Notes under the pieces: model-generated
What the model saw: only the letters and a program-made list of their open reading frames with translations
Told to the model about the DNA's origin: nothing
Database searches by the model: none
Made by a program: the position numbers and the translations under genes
DNA from: Chondrosia reniformis
Lineage: Eukaryota > Porifera > Demospongiae > Chondrillida > Chondrillidae
NCBI GenBank assembly: GCA_947172415.1
Contig: OX359198.1
Span: forward strand, 713,401 to 777,400
Direction of reading: 5' to 3'
Length of the DNA: 64,000 bases
Part shown: one piece after another, positions 21,611-56,466 of the stretch
How the letters are laid out: every line of letters starts with the position of its first letter
Position numbering within the stretch: position 1 is the stretch's first letter

Positions 21611-22232
21611 TGTCTCACTCAAACTCAGATGTATATAATAATATTAGTGTAGTGCTGATTATTAATTATCACATAATTCAGTTCATGTATATACTGTGTG
21701 TGGTACATGGATGTCATTAAAGACCCGTCCAGTTCTTCAAGATGATCATGCATGATTTACATCTTAACTGACTGCAAGATGTATGTATGTATTAGAAACT
21801 GCTGATGGGAATTATATTTAGAAATTGTATGTTACGAAACTCTCCTAGATCAGCAATACAAATAAAATAGCAACCATCTTATTAATAATACTCTTTTATG
21901 GTCATTCTTCCCATTAACCCAAGTTAGTATCGACTTTGGCTTTATTTCTATTCCTTCCTATGATTGTTAGTGTATTTGAAAATATTGAGGTCTACTGTAT
22001 ACTGTATATATGTTAAGATGATGATCTATGTAGACAAAATGGTATACATGGTGTCTTGAAACAAATCTTTAAAGTTATGGACTTTAAGTAATTTATATAT
22101 CAACCATTAATCATTCAAATTATCCACCCACCCGCTCATCCATTCATCCACCCATCCATTCATCCATTTACTCTTAAAGTACCCATTCATGCATCTGCCT
22201 GAACCGTCCCACCCCCTCCCCCTCCCCCTCAG

Positions 22233-22445
22233 GTATTTGGTATCGTTCGAGTTCCCTTATATACTCTTCCAAATGGTCTGGGATTGCCAGCATTTTTGAA
22301 GAACCAATTCATTGGCAATTCAAAATCCCAATTACTATGGTTACTGGAGGCTAGAAACCTATTAAGCAAGGATGAAATTAAGCAAGCTTTAGAATTAGGA
22401 AATAAAATCTCCACTCTAGTCACTGCAGAAGAAATTGACTATTAA
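22233..22445 (+). CDS. NUDT16: Second copy of NUDT16 last exon (4b)
   Basis: Nearly identical to the exon at 21389-21610, with an intact polypyrimidine tract and CAG acceptor, and the same entry phase. The frame is open for 70 codons but the end differs: ...TAEEIDY instead of ...TAEETRSYRM. The preceding intron piece (about 22090-22230) is copied too, so this is a local tandem duplication. It could serve as an alternative terminal exon. AATAAA follows at 22613. Whether it is used cannot be told from sequence. Confidence 0.65.
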   Translation, partial: VFGIVRVPLYTLPNGLGLPAFLKNQFIGNSKSQLLWLLEARNLLSKDEIKQALELGNKISTLVTAEEIDY

Positions 22446-23198
22446 AGGGAGACAAATCTGCTAGAAAATTTAACTGTTTAATAATTTGAATTATATAGAG
22501 CTCTATTGGTACATATATATTTTGTTATCATTCAGTTGCATATACGTATATATATTGTGTATTCATTAATTGGATATGTATGATCCATGAATAGTGTATG
22601 CAGATAAACTGCAATAAAAATGCCTACAGCTGTTAAACTATATTAAAGTGAATAACATTCAAACCTAAAGTTATAGAAGTAGCGCAATATATAGGGATGG
22701 CAGTGCTTGCAACAGTGACTATAGCACATCTGAGAAAAGTAACGAAACGAAACAATTAATTATCATGTAATAAGGCTAAACATTCAAATGGCATACTGAA
22801 ATTTAAGTGACTTAACTTACAGTACACATCACTTCTGTATTTGCAAACATGCTGAAGTAGTATATATTCAGTGTACATTTGGCTCAATATGGACATACAT
22901 ATAATATAGTCATTAGTATTGCAAGTACGTGTAGTTACAGAATATATGTATGTATTAATTATAACCTCTAATGACTTGATCCATATATACGTATATGAAT
23001 AAATACAATGTAATAATTTTATACATATAGGGATTATACCATAGGCCAGGGTAACTCATAATACACACAAACTAGAGATTTTAAATGATATAATGTAGTG
23101 CATTCAGGTATAATACTGTCACTATGTACTGTATATATATACACATCAAATATTAATGTTTTAAAAGTTAAACTTTATTGATTTTGACTTCAGTCCAT
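22446..23198. other. AT-rich spacer, no gene seen
   Basis: AT-rich DNA between the duplicated NUDT16 exon and the 3' end of the minus-strand seven-membrane-segment gene. The same stretch recurs at 37862-38641. An AATAAA on the minus strand (23179-23174) is a likely polyadenylation signal for the gene ending at 23199. Confidence 0.6.
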
Positions 23199-24732
23199 TT
23201 ATGCTTGCAAAATGTCACTGTCCATTTCAATTTGCATTTCTGAATTTTGATTCTGAAGTGTGTCTTTAATGACACCTTTACCAAAATATCCAAGTAGAGC
23301 CACACACAGTGACGATATTCCAAACTGAATCAATTTATTGCTATCAAACAGTTGAGATATTTTATCATAAAAAGACAGCATTACTAACATACTATAGACA
23401 AATCCTGCAACGATGATAATTACTGCAAGAGAAATGTGGATTTGAGCATGGTTCTTACAAGTGCAGCAATTCTTGGGATGTCTCAGCATTAGATAAATCT
23501 CATAAAGGATGACGACAACTACTGCTATAATTAGAAAATAGCAACCTAATGATATGATAGTTTTTATTGGAGAATAAAAAAAGTAAATTACAATATAAGC
23601 AGCCATCCTTCCAAATGCCTGTATTGCATAGATTGGTCCTGCCCATCCAAGTGCTATGGCATGATGTCTGAATAAAGTCTTAAATCTTGAGGAACTTGTG
23701 GATAGATGCTGTGGTTGCTTAGTTACTTTGCTATAGATAAATGGGTATTGACATAATTGGATAACTAATTGAATGAGATTCAGCATTAAACTGAACACAT
23801 AATCAGGTAGAAAATATTCTGGATGGTACTCCGCATGTGTGCCGATAAGATGGATCATGCTCACGTCAATAAAAGTGAAGTATCCCATCAATGGTAAATA
23901 TGTAAACCATCCAAACATTTTCAGCTTTGTTAATCGTCTGTTTGGTGCAGAAGTACATCTTATGCAGTATTTGTTGAGTGCTTTCATTGGTAGAATGCTG
24001 GTAAGAATTAACGCACCAATATTAACTGCATTGACAAGAAGTATGCATGACCATTTAGAAGGCGAATATTTTTCATATATCATGTCATTCCATGCGTAGA
24101 CTTTAATGTTCTTTAGAATAGGTTCTAATGGTTTTCCATTGTACCATAAGGGTCTGTATTGGAAATATATTCCTTCTTTCCATAATTTATTCTGAGGCTA
24201 AAAATGAAACAGAGGTTAATATATATATATTATATGTAAAGCAATGTGACTGTATATTTAATTGCTGACTTACTTCAAGATTAGCTATATATCTGCTGAG
24301 TATATTTTGATTGCAGAGTGTAGGAACATTAACACAAAATGAAATGGGTAGATAATGTTCATTTCTAAGTGGATGAAAAATTAAGGGAGACATCAGAATC
24401 CAATAAAAGTTTCTATACCAAACGTAAGCGTGACATTCTTCACTATTCCACTGACAACATGTGTTTCTTAAGTTTGTTGATTCCAATGTAGTCTCATTTG
24501 TTGCATTGATCATTCGAAAGTAAAAAACATTTATATCATGTAGATTTCGAGGTAGTTGATCAATTGGCAATGGCTTTCCAAAGAAATTATAAAAACCGTA
24601 GTCACTATTTTTATTTCTAAAAACTTGAATCAACTCTTCAAAACTCTCCACACACTCCTTCTTTTTGTCTACCTCTCCACTTGTGAATCCCATCTGGAGC
24701 AGGATCATTATCAGCCAAAGTGAACTAATCAT
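23199..24732 (-). CDS. Seven-membrane-segment receptor-like protein, copy A (intact)
   Basis: Two exons, 24732-24274 and 24197-23199, phase 0, 485 residues; family not recognised. The start gives a signal peptide (LWLIMILLQMGFTSG), then an ectodomain of about 150 residues with spaced cysteines (KKEC, NTCCQW, SEEC, SFC, TLC) and glycosylation sites NATNET. Exon 2 holds about seven hydrophobic segments. Loops after segments 1, 3 and 5 are basic (RHPKNCCTCKNH after segment 5), those after 2, 4 and 6 are not, which fits outside N-terminus and inside C-terminus, as in seven-helix receptors. Motifs shared by all copies: HAIALGWAGPIY, YLMLRHPKNCC and CVALLGYFGKG. It lies head-to-head with copy B. 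A diverged paralogue of copies B, C and E; nearest relative is copy D. Confidence 0.8.
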
Positions 24733-24952
24733 TATTCCCTTGCAGAAAGTACGTAAATAAACAACCTATCTACAGTTCAAATATTGTGAAATCTTTATTC
24801 TGCACACTTTATACTTCTCTTTATAGTTGCTAACTTATTAATGATATTCATTAATGTATATAATAAGGTTTAGCACATGTATGCGTACACTTTAAAAACA
24901 AATCATAAATTGGATTCAACTCTGATTGTTATAGAAACTAAATTCATGCATG

Positions 24953-25223
24953 AAAAATCTAAGATACCATTTTCCTACATGCTATATGCCTATTCTGTAA
25001 AAAGAGCCTACAGGGGAACTAAACCTAAAGAGAGCTTTAGATGAAGATACAGTAGTCTTTTCTTCCTTCTTTTCCCTTCTTTCATCTTCTTCTCCACTGG
25101 GTCATCCCTTCTTTCATCTTCTTCTCCACTGGGTCAGACAGCCGTTTCTGGGAATTCCACCCTTCATCAGTGATCCTGGGAGTCTTTGTCTTTTTCTTTA
25201 TCTTGATCTTCTGTGAATCCTTG
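24953..25223 (-). mobile_element. Hammerhead-bearing repeat with 5-bp target duplication
   Basis: A 271-bp insertion bounded by GCATG on both sides (24948-24952 and 25224-25228). The duplicated segment at about 40030-40050 has the uninterrupted sequence ATTCATGCATGCACACT, an empty site. On the minus strand the element starts CAAGGATTCACAGAAG and ends AGATTTTT. It contains a hammerhead-like core at 25170-25137 (-): CTGATGA, a GGG/CCC stem, GAAAC, an ACGG/CTGT stem, then GTC followed by TGACCCAG. Such motifs are known from Penelope-like elements and retrozymes. No protein is encoded. Confidence 0.75.
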
Positions 25224-25564
25224 GCATGCACACTGTACTACTACTAAAAATATATATATGTAGGGTGTAAAAACAATGAAAGTATATAATAACTATCATG
25301 CATATCTCGTGCATTGTAGTTTCACTCCAAAACTTAAATAACAAAACAGTAAATTAACTATGTTTCATTTACAGTGAATACGTAATTGCTATACATATAC
25401 GTATATATAGTTAATATTAATGCATGTACGAATATTATTTTTATAAGATCCACACACTTGTATATATGTATATACCTACAGAGCATGCAAATGAATGATA
25501 CACAGTCTGTATATGATTTTGTGAACTTCCTACTTCCTATATGTATTCAGTTACTGTACATGTA

Positions 25565-25805
25565 CAGGATTCACAGAAGATCAAGATAAAGAAAAAGACA
25601 AAGACTCCCAGGATCACTGATGAAAGGTGGAATTCCCATAAACAGTTGTCTGACCCAGTGGAAAAGAAGATGAAAGAAGATGAAAGAAAGAAAAGACTCC
25701 TGTATCTTTATCCAAAGCTCTCTTCAGGTTTAGTTCCACTATTGGCTTTTTACAGAATAGGGGCATAGCATGTAGGAAAATTAATATTGTCATGGATTTT
25801 TCATA
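25565..25805 (+). mobile_element. Second copy of hammerhead-bearing repeat
   Basis: Same element as 24953-25223 in opposite orientation, starting AGGATTCACAGAAGATCAAG and ending near GGATTTTTCAT. The core has CTGATGA (25617-25623) but TAAAC in place of GAAAC, so the ribozyme would be dead. A 75-codon open frame through it is probably incidental. Confidence 0.7.
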
Positions 25806-27320
25806 ATGTATACGTTCATCTCATATCTTCTCATTTTGTGTTTTTGAGTATATAATAATGGTAATACTAGGCCCCATATGTGTGTATGCATCTATCATTT
25901 CGGCTCTTTTCTCTTCAGCTGCAACACTATTTCGACTTGTCGGCAAAACAATTAAGTGAAATTTAAGTAAAATAAAACATTTTATATAGAAGTAGGTCAA
26001 TGTTGTAACAATGAATAGCACATCTGGAACAAGTATAAATCTCTATTTAATGAGATATATACTACAACATTAACATATTTATTATGGGAGTATATATTTA
26101 TTAACATATTAACATATTAACAAGGTATATGTTCACCCTTGATACTGTTGTTATTTGTAAAGAGGTTTAGTAAAGATTTTATCCAAAATCATGAAAGAGG
26201 AATAGTTATACAGGAAATTGATTTTGAACCAAAAATACTATCAATTTCAGTAATCATCGTATTTACTAAATGTTTTAGCATCTGATGTATATACAGACCA
26301 GTATTTCATAAGTCTGATAAACAATGTACTATATATATAATATATATATAGCTCACATTGTCAAGTATATATATATATATATGACATACACTTCTGTATT
26401 TGGGCACACCATTCCTACATACTTCAGCTTAGTGCGCCCAAACACAGAAGTGTATGGTTAAGTTACTTAAATTTCAGTATACGTATATGCAACTTCTGTA
26501 TGATTAGCCTTATCATATAATCACTGTCTTGTTTTAACACTCTTTGTAGATGTATTAGTGCACACTGCCATTCCTACTTCTAACATCATTTTTGTAAATG
26601 TTTTTTATTTACTTGTTTTTTTTTATATGGTCCACATACTTGTACTTTTGATATATACACAGTAACTAAATACATATAATATGAAGTAGGAAGTTCAAAA
26701 AATCATATACAGACTGTTATATATATTATTCATTTGCATGCTTTGACTGTATGTATAATGTACACGTTCATCTCAAAACTCATTTTGTATTTTGAGTATA
26801 TATATATATTAATGGTAATACTAGGCCCCATATGTGTGTATGCATCTACGTATGTTATAGAGATGGCTTTTTTGACTCTTTTCTCTTCAGCTGCAACATT
26901 ATTTCAACTTGTCGGCAAAAAAATATCAACAAAAAAGTGAAATTTAAGTAAAATAAAACATTTTTATATAGAGGTAGGGATGGTCAGTGTTGTAACAATG
27001 AATAGCATCTCTTAGTCTATTTAATGAGATATACTACAATGTTAACATTCATGTTTCATGATAAAATTAACAAGGTATATATATTATATTATATTACGTG
27101 CTCTGTTCATCCTTCTTGATACTGTTGTTATTTGTAAAGAGATTTAGTAAAGATTTTATCTAAAAACATGAAAGAGGAATATAATATATTTGAAACAAAA
27201 AATATTATCAATTTCAGTAATCATCGTATTTACTAAATTTTTTTAGCATCTGATGCATACAGACCTGTATTACATAAGTCTGATGTACTTTATATATACG
27301 TATATAGCTGACAAGTATAC
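25806..27320 (+). repeat. Direct duplication of ~550 bp (two copies)
   Basis: 25805-26350 and 26755-27320 are diverged direct copies, recognised by ACTAGGCCCCATATGTGTGT, TCTTTTCTCTTCAGCTGCAA, AAATTTAAGTAAAATAAAAC and GTTGTTATTTGTAAAGAG in the same order. No gene is seen in either; the stretch between them includes a foldback at 26385-26456. Confidence 0.7.
26385..26456 (+). repeat. 72-nt foldback hairpin
   Basis: A 21-nt arm CATACACTTCTGTATTTGGG... at 26385-26405 is matched by its reverse complement at 26436-26456 with one mismatch, around a 30-nt loop. The size resembles a microRNA precursor, but related sequence with CACTTCTGTATTTG occurs near 22830 and 38270, so a foldback repeat is equally possible. 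Confidence 0.6.
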
Positions 27321-27469
27321 ATATATGACCAAATGTATAGCTGCTGGTTTCATCGATCTTTATAATACCTTTGTAGAGGAAAGGTGTTGTTAAATGATAA
27401 CAATAGTTTGTGATCAAAAGGAGCCACGTACGTATATGGTTCATCTTTATTCCTCTTTAGTATATCTTT

Positions 27470-27700
27470 ACAGTGCATGATTTGAAAGTGTTTAGAAAGT
27501 ATATAAATATATATATATATATTATATACCTAATGTGATGGCAACAGGGATATAAATGTATATATATAATACCTTAATGGTATGTGAATTAGCTATGGTA
27601 TTTTGCTAGTGAAAGGACAGTTCTTTTCAGCTAATCTAAGTGATTTCTATGGTGATCCTGGGAATCACAAGTGGTGAGGGAGACAAGAAGAATGTATATC
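27470..27700 (+). pseudogene. 5' relic of a seven-membrane-segment gene (copy F)
   Basis: Upstream DNA and the signal-peptide region match copy C (33905-34135): AAGTGTTTAGAAAGTATATA, GCTATGGTATTTTGCTAGTG and then codons for ISMVILGITSGEGDKK. After GDKK the similarity stops and no ectodomain or membrane exon follows before copy B. It is the remnant of a sixth family member. Confidence 0.65.
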
Positions 27701-28131
27701 CCTATCTTGTTATTATTGACAATGCATTATCAATCAGATGCATGGTAACAGGTTTTCAATCCCATCTTATATATATGTATATACCAGTACAAGGTACGTA
27801 CCTATTAGGAATGCATGCATGAAAAGAAATATATGGATATTTAGAAATAAAAATTAAAACTAAGGTTCACTGAACTATATATACAACTACATATACCATT
27901 TATATCAAAAGGAAATTAATAGTTAAATCATAATATTTTATGTAAACATATTTTAGTATGAATTTTGGAATTGAAAGAAATATTGAAATAACATTGCATG
28001 TATATATGTCTATATGTATATTGATACATACATATAAGTGTATGTGCATATCTATGAATATCATTATTTAAGGGTTATATAGAGGATAGAGGGAGCCCCA
28101 TTGCAAGAAAGTACATGTATTTTGTTTGGGG

Positions 28132-29950
28132 ATGGGTATATATATCATGATGAAAACTTTTAGATCTATTCATTGGATGATAATAATCTCCATAGCGATA
28201 AGATTCACAAGTGGAGAGGGAGACAAGAAGGAGTGTGTGGAGAGTTTTGAAGAGTTGATTCAAGTTCTCAGTAATGAAAGCAGCTACTATGGAATGTATG
28301 ATTACTTTGGACATCCACTTGACATTAATCAACTCAATGGTACTGGATCATATGAAAGAATTAGAGTATTCCACTTTCATATGATAAATATAACCAACCA
28401 GAATGAGCCAAACTCGTCAAAGAACACTTTTAAGTGCTGCCAGTGGAACAGGGAGGAATGCTCTGTCTATGTGTGGTATTCAAATTTTTTTTACCTATTC
28501 TTTCCTCCTATTTGGTTACGTGCACTGAACATTCACTTTTATCCTCGTTCTAAGTGTTTGATTATACCAACCTTATGTGATCAAAGAATATTACAAGGTT
28601 TTGGAATTGTGAGTTGTAAACCATAGCATTCTAATCCACATTGCCACCAAAGGATTATACAAAAAAGGGGGGCTGTGCGTGCATGAATTAACTCGTAATC
28701 ATTTTCAATATTCTATTCAATTAAAAAAATCTACAAGCAGTCACCCAATGAAATCCAGTGGCTCAGTACATGGGTCTATATACGTAGTTCAATCTAAATC
28801 CTTCTTCATAATATTATATACATATTTTGGTTAAACATATGTATACTATATGTATGCGTGTATATATTCTGTATATACGTATGTTGACTTGGTACTTTGT
28901 TGTAATCAGAAGTGATTATATATGTTCTTTTAGAAACCAGGATACTTGAAAACTGAAATCTTCTTTAATTATCGGCCAATGAACATTTGGTTTTCAACCA
29001 TACCTAGAATTATAATTCAGAGGTTAGATAACTCAGCCATCATACATTCTGCAAATGGAATTTTTCCAGAAAGATGGACCAGCTTATTTCTTTCAAATTT
29101 AGTTGTTTTGGGACTAGTAATTCTTGGAAGTGTGTTCACAATGAAATTATTTCTTGAATGTGATGAGAAACTTCAAATGTTAATCTTTGGGAGTTCAAAT
29201 AAGAGATTAACAGAATTTAAAATCATTGGATGGTCTATCTATATAATATTAATGGGAATTGAATTCTTTCTCAATATAAGAAGTATCCATCTTCTATTGT
29301 CACATGAAGAATATTATCCAGAGTACTTTCTACCTGATCCAGTAATAAGTCTCATTGTTAAACTTCTAATGATTGTCATCCATGTTTGTGAATATCCAGT
29401 CATCTATAGCAGAGTACACAAATGTCTATCAACTGATCACCAACGATTGCAGCCCTCAAAGTGGAAGGAGGTGATCAGAAGCCATGCAATAGCCATTGGG
29501 TGGGCAGGTCCACTTTATTTTCTCCAATATGCTATAGTAAATGTTGTAAACATTGTAATATTATTTTTCAACTCCCCACTTATTACCTTGTTAAATATTA
29601 TGTATTACGGTCTGTTATTAGCAATAACAGTTACAATTCTTCATGAGCTATATCTGATGTTGAGGCATCCTCGGAATTGCTGCATTTGCAAGAATCACGT
29701 AACAATCCTCATCTGTCTTGCATTGTATTTTATAACATTTGGAGTGACATTTTATATTTACCCAATATTATCATATTACAACGAACACTCTCCACTGTTG
29801 ACTGGAAATAAAGTGACTCAATATGTGATATCATCTGTTTGCGTAGCTCTCCTTGGATATTTTGGAAGGAAGGTTGCAAAAGGGACAATTAAAGGAATGG
29901 AAAGCCAAAAAAACAATGTGAAAGAAGATGTACAAATGTTATCTTTTTGA
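28132..29950 (+). CDS. Seven-membrane-segment receptor-like protein, copy B (intact)
   Basis: Exons 28132-28608 and 28934-29950, phase 0, about 497 residues. The start is the first in-frame ATG (28132); the ATG at 28147-28152 would give an equally good signal peptide. Ectodomain: KKECVESFEELIQVLSNES, then KCCQW, EECSVYVWY, SKC and TLCDQ, with glycosylation sites NITN and NSSK. Estimated membrane segments at residues 209-232, 256-273, 295-316, 351-371, 375-398, 415-438 and 453-470, with basic inner loops (VHKCLSTDHQRLQPSKWK; MLRHPRNCCICKNH) and a short C-terminal tail ending VQMLSF. It is in subfamily B/C/E, whose membrane part is clearly similar to but well diverged from copies A and D. The function is unknown; topology suggests a receptor or transporter. 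Confidence 0.8.
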
Positions 29951-30400
29951 GTGTAAACTAATTATAACTCACATATGTGTATACATTCACAACTTATTAG
30001 CTTGAAGGAGTATTATGTTGAAAGAGTGCAAAGTAGCTATATAACTGATGATATATAGTAATAGTGAATTTATCCTCGGCATGGATCAGTCTCTTTATCC
30101 ACATAGACTATATATTTAAGACGACATATTCTCGCAGTAAAGTCAGGGGACTTCCCTATAAGCTTCCTATATAGGCATGATTACAAAACTTTTCTTTATT
30201 GACGTGTTTATTATATGTACCATGATAAAATTCAATCATTACTTATTAAAAAGTAAACTGTACAAGCACTGTAAAATAATAAACAATTGAAAACCAGCAA
30301 ATACACCTTTATGTACATGCAAAAATAATCAAAAAATATACAAGAGTTTACGAGTCCATTAATAGCTGCAACAAAATGCTCTTTTGAATTAAAGCTTTAC
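29951..30400. other. AT-rich spacer, nothing recognised
   Basis: 3' flank of copy B; an AATAAA lies near 30284. No other feature is seen. Confidence 0.5.
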
Positions 30401-31170
30401 TGTTACTGCACTTCTTTTCGCGTCACCCAGGGCACACCACGAGGAGGTAGAAGTACTTCGTGCCCCAAAAGGCCTCCGGTTTCTCAACTCTGTTTGACAC
30501 TTCCACTACTTGCGTCGTAAGAGAAGTTGCTCGGGAACGGTCCGGCGTACCTGACCGACCTGTGACCAGTTACTAGTCCTGCACTGCCTCACGCTACGGA
30601 CAGAACAAGCCCGACCCTGGCGGACCACAAACTCCCACCAATGAGAATCATCATGTGCACACAACGCAGCTTGAGAGCACTGTACACAGACTTTAGCTCA
30701 TTGGGATCGGCCAGGTTGCTTTAGAGTAGGGACCCATCGATGAACTACAAGAAAAGAATTAGAGAATATATAATTACCAGCATATGGACATAAACATTGA
30801 GCACACATGCGCATGTAAAATTCCAAATGCAAATGCAAATGTCTTCCAAACCAACCTGATGTGGCAGCCTACAATAGCTTCCTGACCGACTACGTAGTGG
30901 CACTGGACCACACCAACCTCCAGGTACGGGTCGTATAGCAAGAATCCGCAAGTGCCAATTTAACACACAAGCAGGATTAATAGTGAGATACATCTCCAGG
31001 CACTAACCCATAGGTAGAGAGACCACCCCACTATACGAACACCGATGACCCTTCGGATAGGCATGTACCATGACTCGTGCTCCAAGCATGGTTTTCGCAT
31101 CGATCCACACCAAAGTAGACCTCCAGAGTTGATAGCCCGGAGGCCAAAGACTGAAAATATTTTCAACTAT
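30400..31170. other. GC-richer island with broken coding-like stretches
   Basis: About 750 bp of much higher GC content than the flanks. On the plus strand several open stretches look protein-like but sit in different frames separated by stops, for example PPMRIIMCTQRSLRALYTDF near 30640-30700 and AAYNSFLTDYVVALDHTNLQ ending at a CAG/GTACGG donor-like site near 30921. The minus strand also has open stretches. I recognise no family. It could be a decayed gene, a retroelement fragment, or exons of an unmodelled gene. Confidence 0.3.
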
Positions 31171-31736
31171 TTATAAGAAATTGTCGGCGGGAAGCATCGT
31201 GAACTTGGCGGAAAATTGTGGAACCAAACTTTGTTGTTTGTTTTCGAGATCATGTTCGGGAACAATAGACAACATGTACGAGAACAATAGATGACATGTA
31301 GTACATGACCCGGCCTATTTAGCAAGTTATTATTTGCTTTTGAGTTTAGACTCGAAAACATGCAAATTATAGCATGTCCAGTGTTTAATTAATAATCAAG
31401 CTATCAATATCTCTTAATGAACCTCTAATTGTTTCAGCAGTAATAATTTCTATTTTAAATTGTTTCATTCATTCTAAACACATGCATAACCTCTTGCGAG
31501 CGCATGAATTGACATGCATGTTTCATGTACAGCACAAAGTATGGATTTGCGTGATTGTAATTTGTGCGCATCTTCGGCTGACATGAGGTTTAGATTATAA
31601 CCTATTTTGAGTTTCTTATATTTAAAAATGATATATATGTAGATAGTCTACATTAATGCTGTTAACCTTACACTATAATGCGTAAATGTCTATGTCAATG
31701 CAAACTCGAAGTGTTCTAGTCAATTTTGAATCCAAA

Positions 31737-32191
31737 ATGGCCGTTGTTACAACAGACGCTCATGATCAATTCCCTAGTTTGATGAACTCTGGCGTTGTAC
31801 ATGCCCCTAACTACACTGATTGGTAGGTTATCATGTTTAAGGATTCAGACAAACTATATAAATATATATAAAATAACCCAACATGGAGTTATTTGACCAT
31901 ATATACTTTAATAAGTTTAAAGTTTGTTTTCCTCTAAGTTACAATGTTAAGTATCGCACATTAATCTGTAAGAATACTTACTTGTGAGATTATTCAAATA
32001 CTAATTTGAACTTCAAGTCTATATACACTTGTACATTTTGTTTTCACAAGGCAGAAGAATTGTCATGGAAATCGAATGTTGGTTACCTAGCAACATGTCC
32101 AATTAAGAAACAAGAAGGAGAATCAATTAAAGATTTAAGCTTAACCCATTTAGAGAGAGAGAAGATAGTGAAAGAAACTATTGGATCATGA
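31737..32191 (+). CDS. Possible small gene, model uncertain
   Basis: An ATG at 31737 opens 28 codons (MAVVTTDAHDQFPSLMNSG...) to a good donor TG/GTAGGT at 31823. A second open stretch from about 32050 to a stop at 32191 (ELSWKSNVGYLATCPIKKQE...) follows an ACAAG acceptor, but the two do not join in the same frame with the sites I can see, so an exon is missing or one of the pieces is not coding. No family recognised. Confidence 0.3.
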
Positions 32192-32199
32192 GAATCAGA

Positions 32200-34056
32200 A
32201 GTGAGTATATATAACAACTGTAAACTGCATCTGTTCAATGGGACTACCATATTTAGCATGTCTACCAGTCCCTAGACTACCATAGTTCAGTTGGGGGATC
32301 TAGGTGGAACTCTTAAATCAGGAACCTATTTAGCTAGGAAATATAGGGAACTCTTTGTAATTTAGTCAGGTTATCCAGCATTTAAAGATGTAGTACAGCA
32401 TTTAATACAGGCTTATCAATATAAATGGCTATGAAACCCTTTGAGCAAGTTTATTAGTTGGTAGGTAAATTGTGTAAAACTGTTTAGAAAGTTGTAGCTA
32501 CTTAGATAATCTATTTGTTTTACTCTTTTTTAATATCCATGGTAACTAGATTGAGGAATTCTTCAAATGAACTCGTCCAATGGGTATACCTGATTTGGGG
32601 TCCATTGCAGCTCCTAGTAGCTATGGTTACACTCATTTGGGGAAGTGGTTACAGTGCTGGCCCTTCTTTGGTGTATAAATAAAGGTGTTTACGTTGTACC
32701 TCTTGTTTGCTTCTATTTAGCATACATGCCTTCATTTCCATTTATTTCATAGAAAGGTCTCCATGACAACCAGGTGCAGTTCCCTGGCAACCATTCAATT
32801 GGAAATAATTGTTCATGTACTTGTCTCTTACTGGTAGAACAAACTTTACACATGTAAGTCAAGTGGCATCTTTACCTATAGTCAGCTAATCCAAATTGAG
32901 ACCAGGCAGTTTCTCCAAAGTCATTATTTATGGATGTACATGAAAGAAACATTAATTTGTTGTATTTGATGACGTAATATGTTTGCTATACTACATGTGC
33001 ATGTCTTTTAATAGGACTTACTTGTCTGTGACTGGTGTAAGGTAGAGAATTACTTTGTTAAATCATTAAATTATCATGGACACATTTTCTTTCTATCTGT
33101 TTCACTGTAACACCACTTGACAGTGGTTGATGTAATAACATGTTTTGGCAGGATTTGTGTCTATGAACATGAATAACAACTTCTAGAAAAACTTGTTTCA
33201 TTTAGTATCATATATACGTACATCGTGACGTCGACTTACCACTACATATATGTACAGGAAGATTAACTAGTCAGTACTTGTAGTTCAGTTGGGAGTATAC
33301 AGTTTGTATGTACGTATATGGTTAACTCCTTTACTCTAAACACACAAGTATATACAGAAACAGTTTTGTCTGAAACTAGAACACTGACTGTTATTAATAT
33401 GAAGAATTAATAATATGAAGTTTTACTTTTCTTATAAACTCCTCAACTGAGCTTAGCATAAACAAGCACTTGCACACTTATACGTAATGTACGTATAACA
33501 TTGGGAAATATAAAAATGTTACTTTAATTAAGTGAAAGTGATTTACTGAAAGTTTTGGGTGAAACTGCAAAACACCACAACATGTATATATGTATTATAG
33601 TTATAAAATCAATATTTTTACTGCCATATGTTAGTTGCCATATGTTAGTTGGGATCACGAACTTGGTTTGTATTATAATCTGAATTTATAAACATTACAT
33701 TCCATCATTATGTGAGCATGATTAAATTTGTAAATTTTCCTATGTATGGAATGGTGAGCATCATTCGTATTGTTATTATTATTATTATAATAATAACCAC
33801 AGTTTTTGGATTTTAATGAATCGTCAATTATAGAACATACGTATACGTATAATAAATATAAATGTAAGATACAAAATACTTGCAGTATAGAACATTCTAT
33901 AGCTTTACAGTGCATGATTTTGAAAGTGTTTAGAAAGTATATAAATATTAAATATACGTATATACGTATATATAATACCAATGTGATGAAAACGGGGATA
34001 TAAATGTATATACCTGGTACGTGAATTAGTTATGGTATTTTGCTAGTGAAAGGATA
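32200..34056. other. AT-rich intergenic DNA
   Basis: No convincing gene. A short open stretch at 32611-32688 after a CAG acceptor-like site ends at a TAA overlapping an AATAAA and might be a last exon, but nothing upstream joins it. From about 33900 the sequence matches that before the relic at 27470. Confidence 0.4.
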
Positions 34057-36013
34057 ATGATTAAAAAATCTAGTTCTTTTCAGCTAATCAAAGTGATTTC
34101 TATGGTGATCCTGCTGGGATTCACAAGTGGAGAGGGAGACAAGAAGGAGTGTGTGGAGAGTTTTGAAGAGTTGATTCAAGTTCTCAGTAATGAAAGCAGC
34201 TATTATGGAATGTATGATTACTTTGGACATCCACTTGACATTAATCAACTCAATGGTACTGGATCAAATGAAATTATTAGAGTATTCCACTTTCATATGA
34301 TAAATATAACCAACCAGAATGAGCCAAACTCCTCAAAGAACACTTTTAAGTGCTGCCAGTGGAACAGTGAGGGATGCTCTGTCTATGTGTGGTATTCAAG
34401 TTTTGGTTACTTATTTGTTTCTCCTGGGTTGTTTCTTGCAATGAACAGTAGCTATTTTCTTCATTCTAAGTGTTTAGAGATGCCAACTGTGTGTGATCCA
34501 GGAATACTCAATTACTTTGGAAATACTGTGAGTTTTATGGATTCTGAAAACATTCTCATTAAATATTGAATATTACAAACTACAGTTATTAATGCAGTCA
34601 GAAACATGACATTGATATGAAGAACAGTATATGTGTGTATGTATATATAAATAGGTTCAATCTTTCATGCTGAGTTTATTAGTAGCTATACACTAGCCAA
34701 AACTTAGTAACAGATTTCAGATATTTTGACCCAATCAAGTGCTACATATATCAGTGAAAAAAGGGACTTACAATGATGACAAAGCAGACTCATAAAAATA
34801 TATATACATGGAGGAAAAGAGAAAACTCAATACTTATATACTTTAATAGTATACAATCTTAAGAGATGTAATCTTAATTATAGAACTCAATTACATTTTA
34901 ACAAAGCAGTGAAGTAATTGATCATGAGTTGGGGGTGGTAGATTCAAATTTTTTAACTCAATTATTTGTTTTATATATGTTTACATATTTTATTGTAATT
35001 GTTTTTTTCTCATATACGTATATAGCCCCAAAGTGACTTAAAAACTGAAATCTTCTTTGAATATCAACCAATATGGTATGCAAACATACCCAAAATTATC
35101 TTTTCTTCTTACCAACCCATACAAACTTCTTATGGGACATTTCCAGGAAGATGGACTATCTTATTTCTGTCAAATTTAGTTGTTTTGGGACTAGTAATTC
35201 TTGGAAGTGTGTTCACAATGAAATTATTCCTTGAATGTGACAAGAAGCTTCAAATGTTAATCTTTGGGAGTTCAAATAAGAGATTAACAGAATTTAAAAT
35301 TATTGGATGGTCTATCTATATATTATTAATGGGAATTGAATTCTTTCTCAATATAAGAAGCATCCATCTTCTATTGTCACATGAAGAATATTATCCAGAG
35401 TACTTTCTACCTGATCCAGTAATAAGTCTCATTGGTCATTCATGTTTGTGAATATCCAGTCATCCATAGCAGAGTACACAAATGTCTATCAACTGATTAC
35501 CAACGATTGCAGCCCTCAAAGTGGAAGGAGGTGATCAGAAGCCATGCAATAGCCATTGGGTGGGCTGGTCCACTCTATTGTCTCCAATATGCTATAGTAA
35601 ATGTTGTAAACATTGTAATATTATTTGTGAATTCTCCTCTGTATACATTGGGATATGCCTTGCACAACCTTCTGTTAATATCAATAACAGTAACAATTCT
35701 TCATGAGCTATATCTGATGTTGAGACACCCTCGGAATTGTTGCATTTGCAAGAATCACGTAATGATCCTCATCTGTTTTGCATTGCTTTCTATATCATAT
35801 GGAGTGACATATGGTATAGGTCCAATATTATCATATTACAACGAACACTCTCCACTATTGACGGGAAATAAAGTGACTCAATATGTTATATCATCTGTTT
35901 GTATTGCTCTCCTTGGATATTTTGGAAGGAAGATTGTAAAAGGGACAATTGAAGGAATGGAAAGTCAAAGAATCAATAATATGCAAGAAGATGTACAAAT
36001 GTTATCTTTTTGA
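34057..36013 (+). pseudogene. Seven-membrane-segment gene, copy C (frameshifted)
   Basis: Exon 1 (34057-34527) is open and codes for a signal peptide (LIKVISMVILLGFTSG) and the cysteine-containing ectodomain. Exon 2 (35026-36013) is homologous to copy B throughout but has lost 17 bp at about 35434, inside the third membrane segment: the B sequence ATTGTTAAACTTCTAATG... is reduced to ATTGGTCAT. This shifts the frame to a stop at 35451. The rest of the exon remains open in the shifted frame to 36013, so the lesion is recent. Its 3' half is the closest match to copy E. It would make at most a protein with two to three membrane segments. Confidence 0.75.
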
Positions 36014-36132
36014 GTGTGACCTTTATACAGTATATATACTATGTATTATTATTATTATTTATATATGTACCTACAATTGAAAGTGCAATTTTAAGAACAA
36101 ATGCCATCATGCATGAATAGTGAATATGTATG

Positions 36133-36499
36133 TTATGTTTTGGAGGGTTGGGAAGGGAATCTGGATATGCAAATGGAGGCATTGGTTCCTCCAAAGCCGT
36201 ATGAATTAGTAAGAGCCATTCTGTTGTCACTGTCCAATAATACTGACTTTGGGGAGACAATATTCAAAGAAAATTCTCTAGTTTGTGTTGTGAAGTTTAT
36301 AGTTGGAGGAATTATTCCCTCATGGACGGCCAGCACAGTAAAAATGGCTTCCAAAGAGCCGGCTGCTCCAAGCAAGTGGCCTGTAGATCCCTTAGTACTT
36401 GTGATAGGGAGGCTGAGGGCATTTTCCTTGAAGAGGGTCTTTATGGCTTGACTTTCAATTCTGTCCCCGAGAGGTTGCGTGAGCATTTATGTGGCCTAC
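36133..36499 (-). pseudogene. Broken copy of the OXSM last exon
   Basis: Close copy of the exon at 42822-42448 including its acceptor, but 8 bp are missing just after the codons for HINAHAT, so the frame breaks within the catalytic-histidine motif; the rest stays open to the same stop. No other OXSM exon accompanies it. It marks the right end of the duplicated segment. Confidence 0.85.
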
Positions 36500-36509
36500 C
36501 TGCACAATA

Positions 36510-36744
36510 TAAATTAAGATTGCTGCATGGAGCTATAATACCTATACAATATAAATTATATATTAATACAACTATATGGAGCTAGTACCTGCACTATATA
36601 AATTATACAATATTAATATAATTTATATTGTGCAGGAATTATAGCTAGCTGTATTAATAATAAAAATTATATATGAATACAACTACGTATATGGAGCTAG
36701 TACCTGCACAATATGAATTATTACAGCTTAGTTAGTATATTAGT
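36510..36744. other. AT-rich spacer
   Basis: Contains repeated CCTGCACAATATAAATTA-like phrases that resemble the OXSM intron beside exon 6; nothing else seen. Confidence 0.5.
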
Positions 36745-37622
36745 ACAGTTATATGTAGAGAGATAGCTACATAGAGTAATGGTCACTGTAGAGAGGTAGC
36801 TACATAGAGTAATGGTCACTGTAGAGAGGTAGCTACATATGGTCACTGTAGAGAGGTAGCTACATAGAGTAATGGTCACTGTAGAGAGGTAGCTACATAG
36901 AGTAATGGTCACTGTAGAGAGGTAGCTACATATGGTCACTGTAGAGAGGTAGCTACATAGAGTAATGGTCACTGTAGAGAGGTAGCTACATAGAGTAATG
37001 GTCACTGTAGAGAGGTAGCTACATATGGTCACTGTAGAGAGGTAGCTACATAGAGTAATGGTCACTGTAGAGAGGTAGCTACATAGCGTAATGGTCACTG
37101 TAGAGAGGTAGCTACATAGAGTAACGGTCACCGTAGAGAGGTAGCTACATAGAGTAATGGTCACTGTAGAGAGGTAGTTACATAGAGTAATGGTCACTGT
37201 AGAGAGGTAGCTACATAGAGTAATGGTCACTGTAGAGAGGTAGCTACATATGGTCACTGTAGAGAGGTAGCTACATAGAGTAATGGTCACTGTAGAGAGG
37301 TAGCTACATAGAATAATGGTCACTGTAGAGAGGTAGCTACATATGGTCACTGTAGAGAGGTAGCTACATATGGTCACTGTAGAGAGGTAGCTACATAGAG
37401 TAACGGTCACTGTAGAGAGGTAGCTACATAGAATAATGGTCACTGTAGAGAGGTAGCTACATAGAGTAATGGTCACTGTAGAGAGGTAGCTACATAGAGT
37501 AATGGTCACTGTAGAGAGGTAGCTACATAGAGTAACGGTCACTGTAGAGAGGTAGCTCCATAGAGTAACGGTCACTGTAGAGAGGTAGCTACATAGAGTA
37601 ATGGTCACTGTAGAGAGGTAGC
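36745..37622 (+). repeat. 33-bp minisatellite, expanded copy
   Basis: Nearly 30 copies of TAGAGTAATGGTCACTGTAG plus AGAGGTAGCTACA, some shortened by loss of the GAGTAATG part. The same repeat, with only eight copies, lies in OXSM intron 5 (42912-43185). It abuts the third NUDT16 last exon at the duplication joint. Confidence 0.95.
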
Positions 37623-37648
37623 TCCCACTCCCTCCCCCTCCCCCTCAG

Positions 37649-37861
37649 GTATTTGGTATCGTTCGAGTTCCCTTATATACTCTTCCAAATGGTCTGGGAT
37701 TGCCAGCATTTTTGAAGAACCAATTCATTGGCAATTCAAAATCCCAATTACTATGGTTACTGGAGGCTAGAAACCTATTAAGCAAGGATGAAATTAAGCA
37801 AGCTTTAGAATTAGGAAATAAAATCTCCACTCTAGTCACTGCAGAAGAAATTGACTATTAA
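37649..37861 (+). CDS. NUDT16: Third copy of NUDT16 last exon (4c)
   Basis: Almost identical to the exon at 22233-22445, including its pyrimidine tract, acceptor and the ...TAEEIDY end, but about 16 kb away and preceded directly by the 33-bp minisatellite. It was carried here by the segmental duplication. It is open and spliceable in principle; use by the NUDT16 transcript seems unlikely at this distance. Confidence 0.5.
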   Translation, partial: VFGIVRVPLYTLPNGLGLPAFLKNQFIGNSKSQLLWLLEARNLLSKDEIKQALELGNKISTLVTAEEIDY

Positions 37862-38641
37862 AGGGAGACAAATCTGCTAGAAAATTTAATTGTTTAATAA
37901 TTTGGATTATATAGAGCTCTATTGGTACATATATATTTTGTTATCATACAGTTACATATACGTATATATATCCTAATATATTGTGTATTCATTAATTGGA
38001 TATGTATGATCCATGAATAGTGTACGCAGATAAACTGCAATAAAAATGCCTACAGCTGTTAAACTATATTAAAGTGAATAACATTCAAAACCTAAAGTTA
38101 TAGAAGTAGCGCTATATATATATAGGGATGGCAGTGCTTGCAACAGTGACTATACCGCATCTGAGAAAAGTAACGAAACGAAACAATTAATTATCATGTA
38201 ATAAGGCTAAACATTCAAATGGCATACTGAAATTTAAGTGACTTAACTTACAGTACACATCACTTCTGTATTTGCAAACATGCTGAATTAGTATATATTC
38301 AGTGTACATTTGGCTCAATATGGACATACATATATAGTCATTAGTATTGCAAGTACGTGTAGTTACAGAATATATGTATGTACGTATTAATTATAACCTC
38401 TAATGACTTGATCCATATATACGTATATGAATAAATACAATGTAATAATTTTATACATATAGAGATTATACAATAGGCCAGGGTAACTCATAATACACAC
38501 AAACTAGAGATTTTAAATGATATATATAATGTAGTGCATTCAGGTATATATATACGTATACTGTCACTATGTACTGTATATATACACACCAAATATTAAT
38601 GTTTTCAAAGTTAAACTTTATTGATTTTGAGTTCAGTCCAT

Positions 38642-39990
38642 TTATGCTTGCAAAATGTCACTGTCCATTTCAATTTGCATTTCTGAATTTTGATTCTGAA
38701 GTGTGTCTTTAATGACACCTTTACCAAAATATCCAAGTAGAGCCACACACAGTGACGATATTCCAAACTGAATCAGTTTATTGCTATCAAACAGTTGAGA
38801 TATGTTATCATAAAAAGACAGCATTACAAAGATACTATAGACAAATCCTGCAACAACGATAAATACTGCAAGAGAAATGTGGATTCGAGCATGGCTCTTA
38901 CAAGTGCAGCAATTCTTGGGATGTCTCAGCATTAGATAAATCTCATAAAGGATGACGACAACTACTGCTATAATTAGAAAATAGCAACCTAATAATATGA
39001 TAGATTTTATTGGAGAATAAAAAAAGTAAATTACAAAATAAGCAGCCACCCTTCCAAATGCCTGTATTGCATAGATTGGTCCTGCCCATCCAAGTGCTAT
39101 GGCATGATGTCTGAATAAAGTCTTAAATCTTGAGGAATTTGCGGATGGATGCTTTAGATGCTTAGTTACTTTGCTATAGATAAATGGGTATTGACATAAT
39201 TGGATAACTAATTGAATGAGATTCACCATTAAACTGAACACATGATCAGGTAGAAAATACTCCGGATGGGACTCCGCATGTGTGCCGATAAGATGGATCA
39301 TGCTCACGTCAATAAAAGTGAAGTTTCCCATCAATGATAAATATGTAAACCATCCAAACATTTTCAGCTTTGTTAATCGTTTGTTTGGTGCAGAAGTACA
39401 TCTTATGCAATATTTGTTGAGTGCTTTCATTGGTAGAATGCTGGCAAGAATTAACGCACCAATATTAACTGCATTGACAAGAAGTATGCATGACCATTTA
39501 GAAGGCGAATATTTTTCATATATCATGTCATTCCATGCGTAGACTTTAATGTTCTTTAGAATAGGTTCTAATGGTTTTCCATTGTACCATAAGGGTCTGT
39601 ATTGGAAATATACTCCTTCTTTCCATAATTTTTTCTGAGACTAAAACAGAAACAGTGGTTGATATATATGACCGTATAGCAATGTGACTGTATATTTAAT
39701 TGCTGACTTACTACAAGATTAGCTATATATCTGCTGAGTATATTTTGATTGCAGAGTGTAGGAACATTAACACAAAAGGAAACTGGTAGATAATGTTCAT
39801 TTCTAAGTGGATGAAAAATTAAGGGAGACATCAGAATCCAATAAAAGTTTCTATACCAAACGTAAGCTTGACATTCTTCACTATTCCACTGACAACATGT
39901 GTTTCTTAAGTTTGTTGATTCCAATGTAGTCTCATTTGTTGCATTGATCATTCGAAAGTAAAAAACATTTATTTCATGTAGATTTCGAGG
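38642..39990 (-). pseudogene. Seven-membrane-segment gene, copy D (5' truncated)
   Basis: Exon 2 (39640-38642) is fully open, 332 codons, and very close to copy A. Exon 1 is kept only from about codon 60 of copy A (39990) to its donor at 39713. The promoter, start codon, signal peptide and first ectodomain cysteine are gone; the homology resumes upstream at the sequence that in copy A lies near 24912. At the joint there is a short extra TTCGAGAAA beside an existing TTTCGAG, as in repair with local templating. A new in-frame ATG at 40038 would make a protein without a signal peptide. Confidence 0.75.
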
Positions 39991-40324
39991 TTTCGAGAAA
40001 TTGAATTCAACTCTGATTATTATAGAAACTAAATTCATGCATGCACACTATAAAAACAATGAAAGTATATAATAATTATTATGCATGTCTCGTGCATTGC
40101 AGTTTCACAAAACAGTAAATTAAATATGTTTCATTTACAGTGAATACGTAATTGCTATACATATATAGTTAATATTAATGCATGTACGAATATTATTTTT
40201 ATAAGATCCACACACTTGTATATATGTATATACCTACAGAGCATGCAAATGAATGATACACAGTCTGTATATGATTTTTTGAACTTCCTACTTCCTATAT
40301 GTATTCAGTTACTGTACATGTACA

Positions 40325-40411
40325 GGATTCACAGAAGATCAAGATAAAGAAAAAGACAAAGACTCCCAGGATCAGTGGAATTCCCATAAACAGCTGTCTG
40401 ACCCAGTGGAG
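40325..40411 (+). mobile_element. 5' part of hammerhead-type repeat at duplication joint
   Basis: Matches 25565-25650 but lacks the CTGATGA stretch and stops abruptly after GACCCAGTGGA, where sequence homologous to the upstream of copy B (28040) begins. The break of the rearrangement therefore lies inside this repeat. Confidence 0.7.
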
Positions 40412-40501
40412 ATTTTGATATATGAATATCATTATTTAAGGGTTATATATAAAGAGGATAGAGGGAGCCCCATTGCAAGAAAGTACATGTATTTTGTTTG
40501 C

Positions 40502-42328
40502 ATGGGGATGGGTATATATATCATGATGAAAACGTTTAGATCTATTCATTGGATGATAATAATCTCCATAGCGATAAGATTCACAAGTGGAGAGGGAGAC
40601 AAGGAGGAGTGTGTGGAGAGTTTTGAAGAGTTGATTCAAGTTCTCAGTAATGAAAGCAGCTACTATGGAATGTATGATTACTTTGGACATCCACTTTACA
40701 TTAATCAACTCAATGGTACTAAGTGGAATGAAATCTTTACAGAATTAGAGTATTCCACTTTCATATGATAAATATAACCAACCAGAATGAGCCAAACTCA
40801 TCAATGAACACTTTTAAGTGCTGCCAGTGGAACAGTGAGTGATGCTCTGTCTATGTGTGGTATTCAAACTTTGTTTACTTATTCTTTCCTCCTATTTGGT
40901 TATTGGTTTTGAACATTCAATATTATCCTCATTCTAAGTGTTTGAATATACCAACCTTGTGTGATCTTGTGGAATACTACAAGGTTTTGGAATTGTGAGT
41001 TGTAAATCATAGCATTCTAATCCACATTGCCACCAAAAGATTATACAAAGAAAGGGGGGCTGCATGAATTAACTCATTTTCATTCTATTCAATTAAAAAA
41101 ATCCACAAACAGTCACCCAATGAAATCCAGTGGCTTACATGGGTCTATATACGTTGTTCAATGTATATATAAAGGTTTATATCTGAATCCTTCTTCATAT
41201 TATTTATTTTGGTTAAACATATGTATACTATATGTATGTGTGTATATATTCTGTATATACGTATGTTGACGTGGTACTTTGTTGTAATCAGAAGTGATTA
41301 TGTTCTTTTAGAAACCAAGATACTTGAAAACTGAAATCTTCTTTAAATATCGGCCAATGGACATTTGGTTTTCAACCATACCTAAATATATAATTCAAAG
41401 GTTAGACGACTCAGTCATACATTCGGCAAATGGAATTTTTCCAGAGAGATGGACCAGCTTATTTCTGTCAAATTTAGTTGTTTTGGGACTAGTAATTCTT
41501 GGAAGTGTGTTCACAATGAAATTATTCCTTGAATGTGACGAGAAGCTGCAAATGTTAATCTTTGGGAGTTCAAATAAGAGATTAACAGAATTTAAAATCA
41601 CTGGATGGTCTATCTATATATTATTAATGGGAATTGAATTCTTTCTCAATATAAGAAGTATCCATCTTCTATTGTCACATGAAGAATATTATCCAGAGTA
41701 CTTTCTACCTGATCCAGTAATAAGTCTCATTGTTAAACTTCTAATGATTGTCATCCATGTTTGTGAATATCCAGTCATCTATAGCAGAGTACACAAATGT
41801 CTATCAACTGATCACCAACGATTGCAGCCCTCAAAGTGGAAGGAGGTGATCAGAAGCCATGCAATAGCCATTGGGTGGGCAGGTCCACTTTATTTTCTCC
41901 AATATGCTATAGTAAATGCTGTAAACATTGTAATTTTATTTGTGAATTCTCCCCTGTATACATTGGGATATGCCTTGCACAACCTTCTGTTAATAACAAT
42001 AGCAGTTACAATTCTTCATGAGCTATATCTGATGTTGAGACACCCTCGGAATTGTTGCATTTGCAAGAATCATGTATCGATCCTCATCTGTTTTGCATTG
42101 CTTTCTATATCATATGGAGTGACATATGGTATAGGTCCAATATTATCATATTACAACGAACACTCTCCACTGTTGACTGGAAATAAAGTGACTCAATATG
42201 TTATACCATCTGTTTGTATTGCTCTCCTTGGGTATTTTGGAAGGAAGATTGTAAAAGGGACAATTGAAGGAATGGAAAGCCAAAGAAACAATAATATGCA
42301 AGAAGATGTACAAATGTTATCTTTTTGA
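40502..42328 (+). pseudogene. Seven-membrane-segment gene, copy E (exon 1 broken, B/C chimera)
   Basis: Exon 1 (40502-40994) has an 8-bp net insertion near 40725 that shifts the frame, and a TGA at about 40841 where copy B has a GAA codon. Exon 2 (41312-42328) is fully open and intact, 338 codons. The upstream DNA, exon 1 and start of exon 2 (KTEIFFKYRPMDIWFSTIP) match copy B, while its later part (NSPLYTLGYALHNLLL, SYGVTYGIGPIL) matches copy C, so it looks like the product of recombination between B-like and C-like genes. The substitution creating TGA also makes a good donor (GTGAGT). Confidence 0.75.
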
Positions 42329-42447
42329 GTGTGACCTATATACAGTATATATACTATGTATTATTATTATTATTTATATATGTACCTACAATTGAAAGTG
42401 CAATTTTAAGAACAAATACCATCATGCATGAATAGTGAATATGTATG

Positions 42448-46224: not shown

Positions 46225-46905
46225 CTTAAAGCCAAAAGGAAGAGAAAAGGAGAAGATTAATGTTCAGTTTGGAGCTAGGAGATGTGAAATGTTTATCAAT
46301 GGTTAGCTAGTACATGAGTTTATTACTGCTTTGTATATTGTACATATTGTACATTTAAGGGATAATTTTTATTGCTGAAGAAGACCTACGGGTCGAAACG
46401 TCCTAATTCTTTGATTAATAATAAGTGTTGCTGATGCTCAAATCATATCCAACCAATTGTACATATTGTACGTTTAAGGGATATCACTATGAATGTGCTC
46501 ACGGAAATACAAAATGAAAAGTAAAATATGTGAACCAGTTAAAGTTATTTATAAATATCTACACTAAATACTTAATTTCGATGTGTGTTGCATAATGTAT
46601 ATTTCAATAGAATGTATTGCTTTGAATATGTTTAGTGACATATACTGTAATTACATGTATATAATATTAATATATATTATATTATATGTTAGCACGTTGT
46701 TCAATGATAATTAAGTATTAATGCATGACTTTTATTGTAAACATTTACTATCATCCATCACCATGAACTATTTTGGCAAATGTCAAGGAATCACATTTTT
46801 GAAAACAAAGTATAATGCAATGCGTCCACTACTGCTTTAGAACTAAGCAACAACGACTATATGTTTCAGCACCTATGTATATATATAGTGTATTAACTCA
46901 ATAAG
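46225..46905. other. Spacer between OXSM and the helicase gene
   Basis: AT-rich; it contains the small element at 46337-46483 and otherwise no gene. OXSM and the helicase share the minus strand, so it holds the OXSM promoter and the helicase 3' flank. Confidence 0.5.
46337..46483 (+). mobile_element. Hammerhead-like element flanked by 27-bp direct repeats
   Basis: About 90 bp containing CTGAAGA, a GACC/GGTC stem, GAAAC and GTC (46375-46402) lies between two near-identical copies of TTGTACATATTGTACATTTA plus AGGGATA (46337-46365 and 46455-46483). The core has A for U at position 7 (CTGAAGA), so it may be inactive. The flanking repeat could be a long target duplication or part of the element. 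Confidence 0.6.

Positions 46906-49098: not shown

Positions 49099-56466
<7,368 letters not shown>

Follow-up and report, generated by a model that had tools for sequence, protein, structure and literature searches.

A two-exon gene family in Chondrosia reniformis

The window analysed here, a 64-kilobase (kb) stretch of the sponge Chondrosia reniformis (contig C10:713401-777400), holds six copies or relics of one gene family, which were located from stop-to-stop open reading frames (ORFs) and by comparing family proteins with the window: copies A to E and one fragment, the same six that a first-pass annotation had counted (Table 1). Copies A (- strand, 23199-24732) and B (+ strand, 28132-29950) are intact two-exon genes, and C, D and E are broken. 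The gene layout is shared: in exon 1 a hydrophobic N-terminal segment leads into a six-cysteine ectodomain of ~135 residues, and exon 2, behind a phase-0 intron, encodes seven helices. Genome-wide searches covered the assembly of 117,379,552 bases in 15 contigs (odChoReni1.1, given as 117.37 Mb with 14 chromosomes and a 17.45-kb mitochondrion in PMC12181767) and returned 84 places for exon 2 of copy A, 86 for exon 2 of copy B and 76 for exon 1 of copy A, on 10 of the 15 contigs; the window holds only the edge of the family. Within the libraries searched (Pfam, PDB, BFVD, GTDB and IMG/VR), this is a real, large and unrecognised family with receptor-like anatomy.

After removal of the 4 weakest of the 84 exon-2 rows and of 2 of the 76 exon-1 rows, 51 of the 80 remaining exon-2 rows span at least 286 query residues and 46 of these are stop-free. 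An upstream stop-free exon 1 with at least 111 aligned residues lies within 2.5 kb of 39 of these 46; such copies are called intact-looking, meaning stop-free inside the aligned stretch only, with frameshifts beyond it uncounted. In terms of gene models, 41 of 48 exon-2 ORFs are accompanied by an exon-1 model that is free of stops and 100 residues or longer (one exon 1 being counted twice), with donor and acceptor sites picked by a scoring script, so that their good look is partly circular. The main clusters lie at C7:2.16-2.30 Mb and at C10:0.55-0.63, 0.74-0.76 and 1.97-2.00 Mb, and small groups or single copies occur at C7:6.72-6.86 Mb and on contigs C2, C3, C4, C6, C12, C13 and C14. Remote members, at 16-20% identity, comprise two in tandem on C8, one at C7:216 kb and one at C3:9.18 Mb; three of the four recognisably keep the layout of exon 1 plus exon 2, whereas the exon-1 model of the C7:216 kb member is doubtful (E 0.76) and has just a CC...C stretch to show. 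An ectodomain match at C12:2.499 Mb (E 0.81) was dropped, the locus reading by eye as retroelement reverse-transcriptase-like ORFs. Scans for contaminating or viral relatives confirmed none of 100 pattern stretches in GTDB and none of 62 in IMG/VR.

A tree of 45 exon-2 proteins separates the remote singles, a dispersed clade of 11, the A/D clade, a clade of B/E with a C12 copy, and an expansion of 25 on C7 and C10, with 95-100% bootstrap on the branches between groups. The first-pass annotation had described two diverged subfamilies in the window, and A/D and B/E are indeed only ~41% identical and form clades with 100/100 support each; their joining in the tree may reflect long-branch attraction, of which the tree tool warned.

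Table 1. Family members and relics in the 64-kb window (window coordinates).
Feature	Position	Strand	Description
Copy A exon 2	23199..24197	-	Seven-transmembrane domain, 332 aa, intact, stop included
Copy A intron	24198-24273	-	76 bp, phase 0
Copy A exon 1	24274..24732	-	Intact, 153 aa; hydrophobic N-terminal segment, then six-Cys ectodomain
Exon-1 start relic	27613..27690	+	78 bp; 85% identity with copy C residues 4-30
Copy B exon 1	28132..28608	+	Intact; further in-frame ATGs at 28147 and 28150
Copy B intron	28609-28933	+	
Copy B exon 2	28934..29950	+	Seven-transmembrane domain, 338 aa, intact, stop included
Copy C exon 1	34057..34527	+	Open, 157 aa
Copy C exon 2	35026..36013	+	Pseudogene; frameshift near 35432-35451 splits exon
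Copy D exon 2	38642..39640	-	Open, 332 aa; 92% identity to A
Copy D exon 1	39712..39990	-	Only the 3' part; nothing matches residues 1-60 of A exon
Copy E exon 1	40508..40965	+	Broken: frameshift and in-frame stop
Copy E exon 2	41312..42328	+	Open, 338 aa; 88% identity to B

Predicted protein and searches against known families

The AlphaFold2 model of copy B exon 2 contains seven long helices (residues 46-75, 90-123, 134-171, 176-213, 215-244, 253-285 and 291-328 in B exon-2 numbering; predicted local distance difference test (pLDDT) 74.5, predicted template modelling score (pTM) 0.64), and averaged hydropathy gives seven regions, of which transmembrane segments (TM) 2 and 7 are weak, bearing out the roughly seven hydrophobic segments read at first pass. 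Lysine plus arginine (K+R) is higher in the three cytosolic than in the three outer loops of all 44 members (means 14.3 and 2.0), with loop borders set by the analyst. The cytosolic loops are longer, yet their K+R fraction is also higher (0.16-0.25 versus 0.01-0.12). This charge pattern fits an outside N-terminus in 44 of 44 members, the orientation that had been proposed from fewer copies. Nearly invariant residues include PEYFLP (outer loop 1), YPxIY (where TM3 ends), H-GWAGP-Y-Q (TM4), E-LM-RHP-CC-N (TM5 into intracellular loop 3, ICL3) and LGYFG (TM7); most such motifs are found on or close to the cytosolic side, with PEYFLP an exception. The conserved RHPxNCCxCxNH-type motif of ICL3 (B numbering 244-255), just inside the membrane, could be palmitoylated or bind metal. 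At the C-terminus, 36 of 44 members carry a hydrophobic-x-hydrophobic ending (MLPY, MLSF, ILQA, HLIV and others; 3.3 expected in shuffles), a post hoc count in which many members are close relatives; such endings resemble class II PDZ ligands.

Every one of the 39 exon-1 models begins with a hydrophobic segment (best 10-residue hydropathy 1.4-3.2), as expected of the signal peptide previously proposed, and the ectodomain cysteines are arranged around a CCxWxxxxC core, with Cys8, Cys73 and Cys114 each present in 38 of the 39 proteins, Cys74 and Cys81 in all and Cys121 in 28. The cysteine set and the N-glycosylation sites noticed at first pass thus extend to the family at large: N-X-S/T sequons occur in 39 of 39 proteins and total 100, against 51 +/- 6 in shuffles. 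The sixth cysteine alternates between the exons. Among 38 paired members, 26 have Cys121 only, 10 only a cysteine at the start of exon 2, one has both and one neither (p=2e-7). Two rows carry a caveat of modelling: L071, one of the 10, has an exon-1 model that ends short of Cys121, and L058, one of the 26, has an exon-2 model that starts late. The swap suggests that both exons form one protein with a disulfide; all 10 rows with the exon-2 cysteine sit in one clade, and it is therefore essentially one evolutionary change. A structure model of the ectodomain (mixed alpha/beta, pLDDT 55.3, pTM 0.48) is too poor to interpret, and a Foldseek search of the PDB with this low-confidence model gave no match.

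The first-pass annotation had recognised no known family, and the libraries searched give no consistent or significant match. At E<=1, 44 exon-2 proteins matched 18 Pfam families, the widest in 8 of the 44 and none of them a seven-transmembrane (7TM) receptor family (best match DUF6264, E 0.0016, in one member), and 39 exon-1 proteins matched three (best E 0.019); six window ORFs score far under the curated Pfam cut-offs. PDB sequence profiles reached E 0.55 and 0.092 at best. The structural check that had been proposed returned seven helices and, with Foldseek against the PDB and BFVD, no match at E<=0.001. Under the same Pfam threshold, 7tm_1, 7tm_6 and 7tm_7 are without a match in the 44 members, and 7tm_2 with GAIN/GPS and the hormone-receptor domain, 7tm_3 with venus-flytrap, and Frizzled 7TM with the Fz cysteine-rich domain (CRD) are without one in the 44 transmembrane and 39 ectodomain proteins. 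GOST_TM (PF06814) matches none of the 44, GOLD none of the 39 ectodomain proteins at E<=1. Four of these profiles do find other places in the same genome: at least 16 places match 7tm_1, at least 95 match 7tm_2 and at least 68 match 7tm_3, all of them exon-level matches rather than genes and lower bounds, which also gives the scale of the recognised receptor families here, and GOST_TM finds two regions on C2. By coordinates none of these is a family locus. GPR180-TMEM145_TM likewise matches none of the 44 members, but its search of the genome returned nothing, controls included, and is uninformative. A literature search, whose reach excluded subscription papers, supplements and the Ensembl annotation, found no description of the family.

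Unequal change and turnover among the copies

Both exons are under overall constraint. Over 12 disjoint pairs from the expansion, exon 2 has proportions of nonsynonymous (pN) and synonymous (pS) differences of 0.039 and 0.060 per site, a ratio of 0.65 (Fisher p=5e-6), and the ectodomain gives a pN/pS of 0.66 over 11 pairs (p=0.005); ratios significantly below 1 in both exons indicate this constraint. Within it, change is unevenly distributed. Nonsynonymous differences are ~2.4 times denser in the linker and extracellular loops (ECL) 1-3 (114 of 1623 sites) than in ICL1-3 (56 of 1942; odds 2.5, p=8e-9), and the corresponding synonymous contrast is not significant (p=0.20). Outer loops exceed inner loops by site permutation in the C7 (p=0.0016), C10 (p=0.0005) and B/E/C12 (p=0.015) groups, the first two of which hold the same genes as the disjoint pairs. 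The outer halves of the transmembrane segments also exceed the inner halves in the C10 group (p=0.0004, with pS leaning likewise, p=0.04) and weakly in B/E/C12 (p=0.06), and family-wide (44 members) the majority-residue fraction is 0.603 in outer and 0.699 in inner halves. In recent copies the cytosolic loops and the tail rank with the most constrained regions. The outer face thus changes faster among recent copies, under overall constraint; positive selection is not proven.

Turnover is visible in the window itself. The A/B and D/E stretches are duplicates of one another (22207-24553 versus 37623-39991, 95.7%; 28050-29954 versus 40418-42332, 90.7%), and copies C and E share ~1.4 kb at 95.2% identity (35140-36559 versus 41438-42882), a length that covers the greater part of exon 2 together with a ketoacyl-synthase exon. 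Because of that shared stretch, copy E looks like a mosaic of B-type and C-type sequence. Head-to-head pairs of A-type and B-type copies recur, as A/B, D/E and a partial pair at C12:484913-488161, and copy E and the C12 copy each carry two TGA codons in the same part of exon 1, as if copied after breakage. Exon 2 of A and D differ by a synonymous rate (dS) of 0.024 and a nonsynonymous rate (dN) of 0.035 (dN/dS 1.45), against a dS of 0.143 for B and E; such a mismatch within one duplicated block points to gene conversion or to separate duplications.

Copy E is adjoined by a ketoacyl-synthase gene (42448-46263, - strand; Pfam ketoacyl-synt and Ketoacyl-synt_C), presumably mitochondrial OXSM, whose last exon is duplicated beside copy C (36133-36486, - strand) in the same segmental duplication. 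Neighbouring ORFs at 46906-48703 (-) and 53528-56173 (+) match type III restriction/DEAD-type helicase, MYND finger and ubiquitin hydrolase. Many minisatellite-like arrays (~6.6-20, 36.7-37.6, 42.9-44.4, 50.3-53.4 and 60.8-62.4 kb) contain long repetitive ORFs in several frames, which do not look like genes.

A putative receptor family and its likeness to known systems

We assign a probability of roughly 55% to the reading that A and B, both intact, belong to a large birth-and-death family of receptors at the cell surface that sense an external ligand and whose outer face changes faster. Under this reading, the protein would consist of a signal peptide, a disulfide-bonded and N-glycosylated ectodomain of ~135 residues, an extracellular linker, an N-out seven-helix bundle and a short cytosolic tail. 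A microbe-derived, conspecific-derived or dissolved cue would bind to the ectodomain, the linker and the outer ends of the helices, binding would move the helices, and the cytosolic face (ICL2 together with the end of TM3, plus the motif LMLRHPxNCCxC at TM5-ICL3) would relay the signal, in the fashion of G-protein-coupled receptors (GPCRs) or via another partner. Surface location, disulfides, ligand binding, signalling and a chemosensory or non-self role are all predictions from sequence; for the chemosensory, allorecognition or pathogen-facing role that the first-pass annotation had already offered as conjecture, we infer the same, and copy number and the faster outer face fit it.

Several results weigh against this reading. 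The C7 cluster shows no contrast between outer and inner transmembrane halves (p=0.67), and when the pairs are pooled, synonymous differences also tend towards an excess in the outer halves (p=0.058). Across the 44 members the majority-residue fraction is nearly equal in outer (0.639) and cytosolic (0.656) loops; since the loops of the whole family hardly differ, the outer/cytosolic contrast is confined to recent copies. The highest local pN/pS values, 1.38 in the linker (p=0.26) and 1.77 at ectodomain residues 97-108 (p=0.32), are not significant, and both regions were chosen after the data had been seen. All site tests assume independent sites, an assumption that gene conversion would violate. 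The hallmarks of class A GPCRs, namely the TM3-ECL2 disulfide cysteines and the DRY and NPxxY motifs, are absent by eye from the invariant and nearly invariant columns, and ECL2 is ~7 residues long. The 7TM model, moreover, has no GPCR-like match among its Foldseek rows, and VIA and Foldseek together give no clear GPCR-fold match, a comparison of weak power with a model at pLDDT 74.5 and pTM 0.64.

The alternative that fares best, unlikely as we judge it, is that the family is a diverged, sponge-expanded branch of a named GPCR-type family, for example Hi-GOLD or another minor 7TM family, the tools being too weak to reveal the kinship. In its favour, the 7TM part has the same N-out topology and follows immediately after an ectodomain, and BFVD lists first, for the 7TM model, a viral protein that bears the annotation of a family 1 GPCR, at insignificant scores (E 0.17; query TM-score (TMq) 0.18). 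Against it, no Pfam match of the 44 members at E<=1 is to a 7TM receptor family, and the 7tm_1, 7tm_2, 7tm_3 and GOST_TM profiles work in this genome and pass over every family locus; that the ectodomain is modelled as mixed alpha/beta and not as all-beta proves little at pLDDT 55.

We also think it rather unlikely that these are ordinary tandem duplicates drifting under relaxed constraint, with weaker structural constraint on the outer face and no diversifying function. Many copies are broken, including C, D and E, the pN/pS of ~0.65 over both exons, the two regions without significant positive selection and the nearly equal family-wide loop conservation agree with drift, as does the dN/dS of A versus D. 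However, 39 two-exon copies look intact and are spread over several chromosomes, cysteines and motifs persist down to 16-20% identity, and the overall constraint is significant.

An improbable alternative makes the proteins adhesion or allorecognition tags, with a variable outer part for recognising other cells and seven helices that serve as its anchor and do no 7TM signalling themselves. Sponges are reported to discriminate self from non-self (PMC5450542), and among recent copies the outer linker and loops do outpace the cytosolic loops. A passive anchor, however, would have no need of the several nearly invariant motifs at or near the cytosolic side, or of the constraint on the cytosolic loops and tail, which in recent copies ranks with the strongest. 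Similarly improbable is a ligand-gated channel or transporter whose helices form or join a pore, as in insect odorant receptors (ORs): ABC transporter chains fill 11 of the 20 top Foldseek rows of the 7TM model, but insignificantly (best E 0.67; TMq <=0.30 among the 50 matches listed), hhalign finds no internal helix duplication in six of six comparisons, and the N-out charge pattern is opposite to the N-in topology of insect ORs and gustatory receptors (GRs).

Returning to the receptor reading, a bolder version, which we regard as doubtful, would see an old seven-helix receptor superfamily non-homologous to GPCRs, with paralogues at 16-20% identity inside a single sponge and at least 39 intact-looking genes, serving as a main repertoire for reading microbes, food or neighbours. 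Sensing and discrimination proceed in sponges without neurons, and according to a survey of Amphimedon sponges are without many classical mammalian-like sensory receptors, including olfactory receptors (PMC4302439). The present family, clustered, with an outer face that changes faster and with 39 intact-looking genes, offers concrete candidates for this gap; it also suggests that receptor surveys built on profiles can overlook an entire family.

Comparison with known systems yields partial likenesses. As in GOST and Hi-GOLD proteins, a single compact ectodomain directly precedes seven helices; Hi-GOLD and GPRch3 have sponge homologs according to a recent survey of 7TM families in animals' close relatives, which gives GPRch3 short N-termini, unlike this family (PMC12716839). 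The present family differs from GOST in having no GOST_TM match although that profile works in the same genome. GOLD is an all-beta fold, whereas the ectodomain model is mixed alpha/beta, at a pLDDT of only 55 and with Hi-GOLD compared by description rather than by sequence. Frizzled also combines a cysteine-rich ectodomain with seven helices, but the Fz CRD has ten cysteines and this ectodomain six, with a CC pair. Insect ORs and GRs (7tm_6, 7tm_7) likewise form large clustered seven-helix families; their N-terminus is inside, in contrast to the N-out charge pattern of 44 of 44 members here, and they are not known to have a cysteine-rich ectodomain. With class A rhodopsin-like GPCRs and expanded chemosensory GPCR families (7tm_1) the present family shares a predicted N-out seven-helix topology, a clustered repertoire with many broken copies, and outer loops that outpace cytosolic loops in recent copies.

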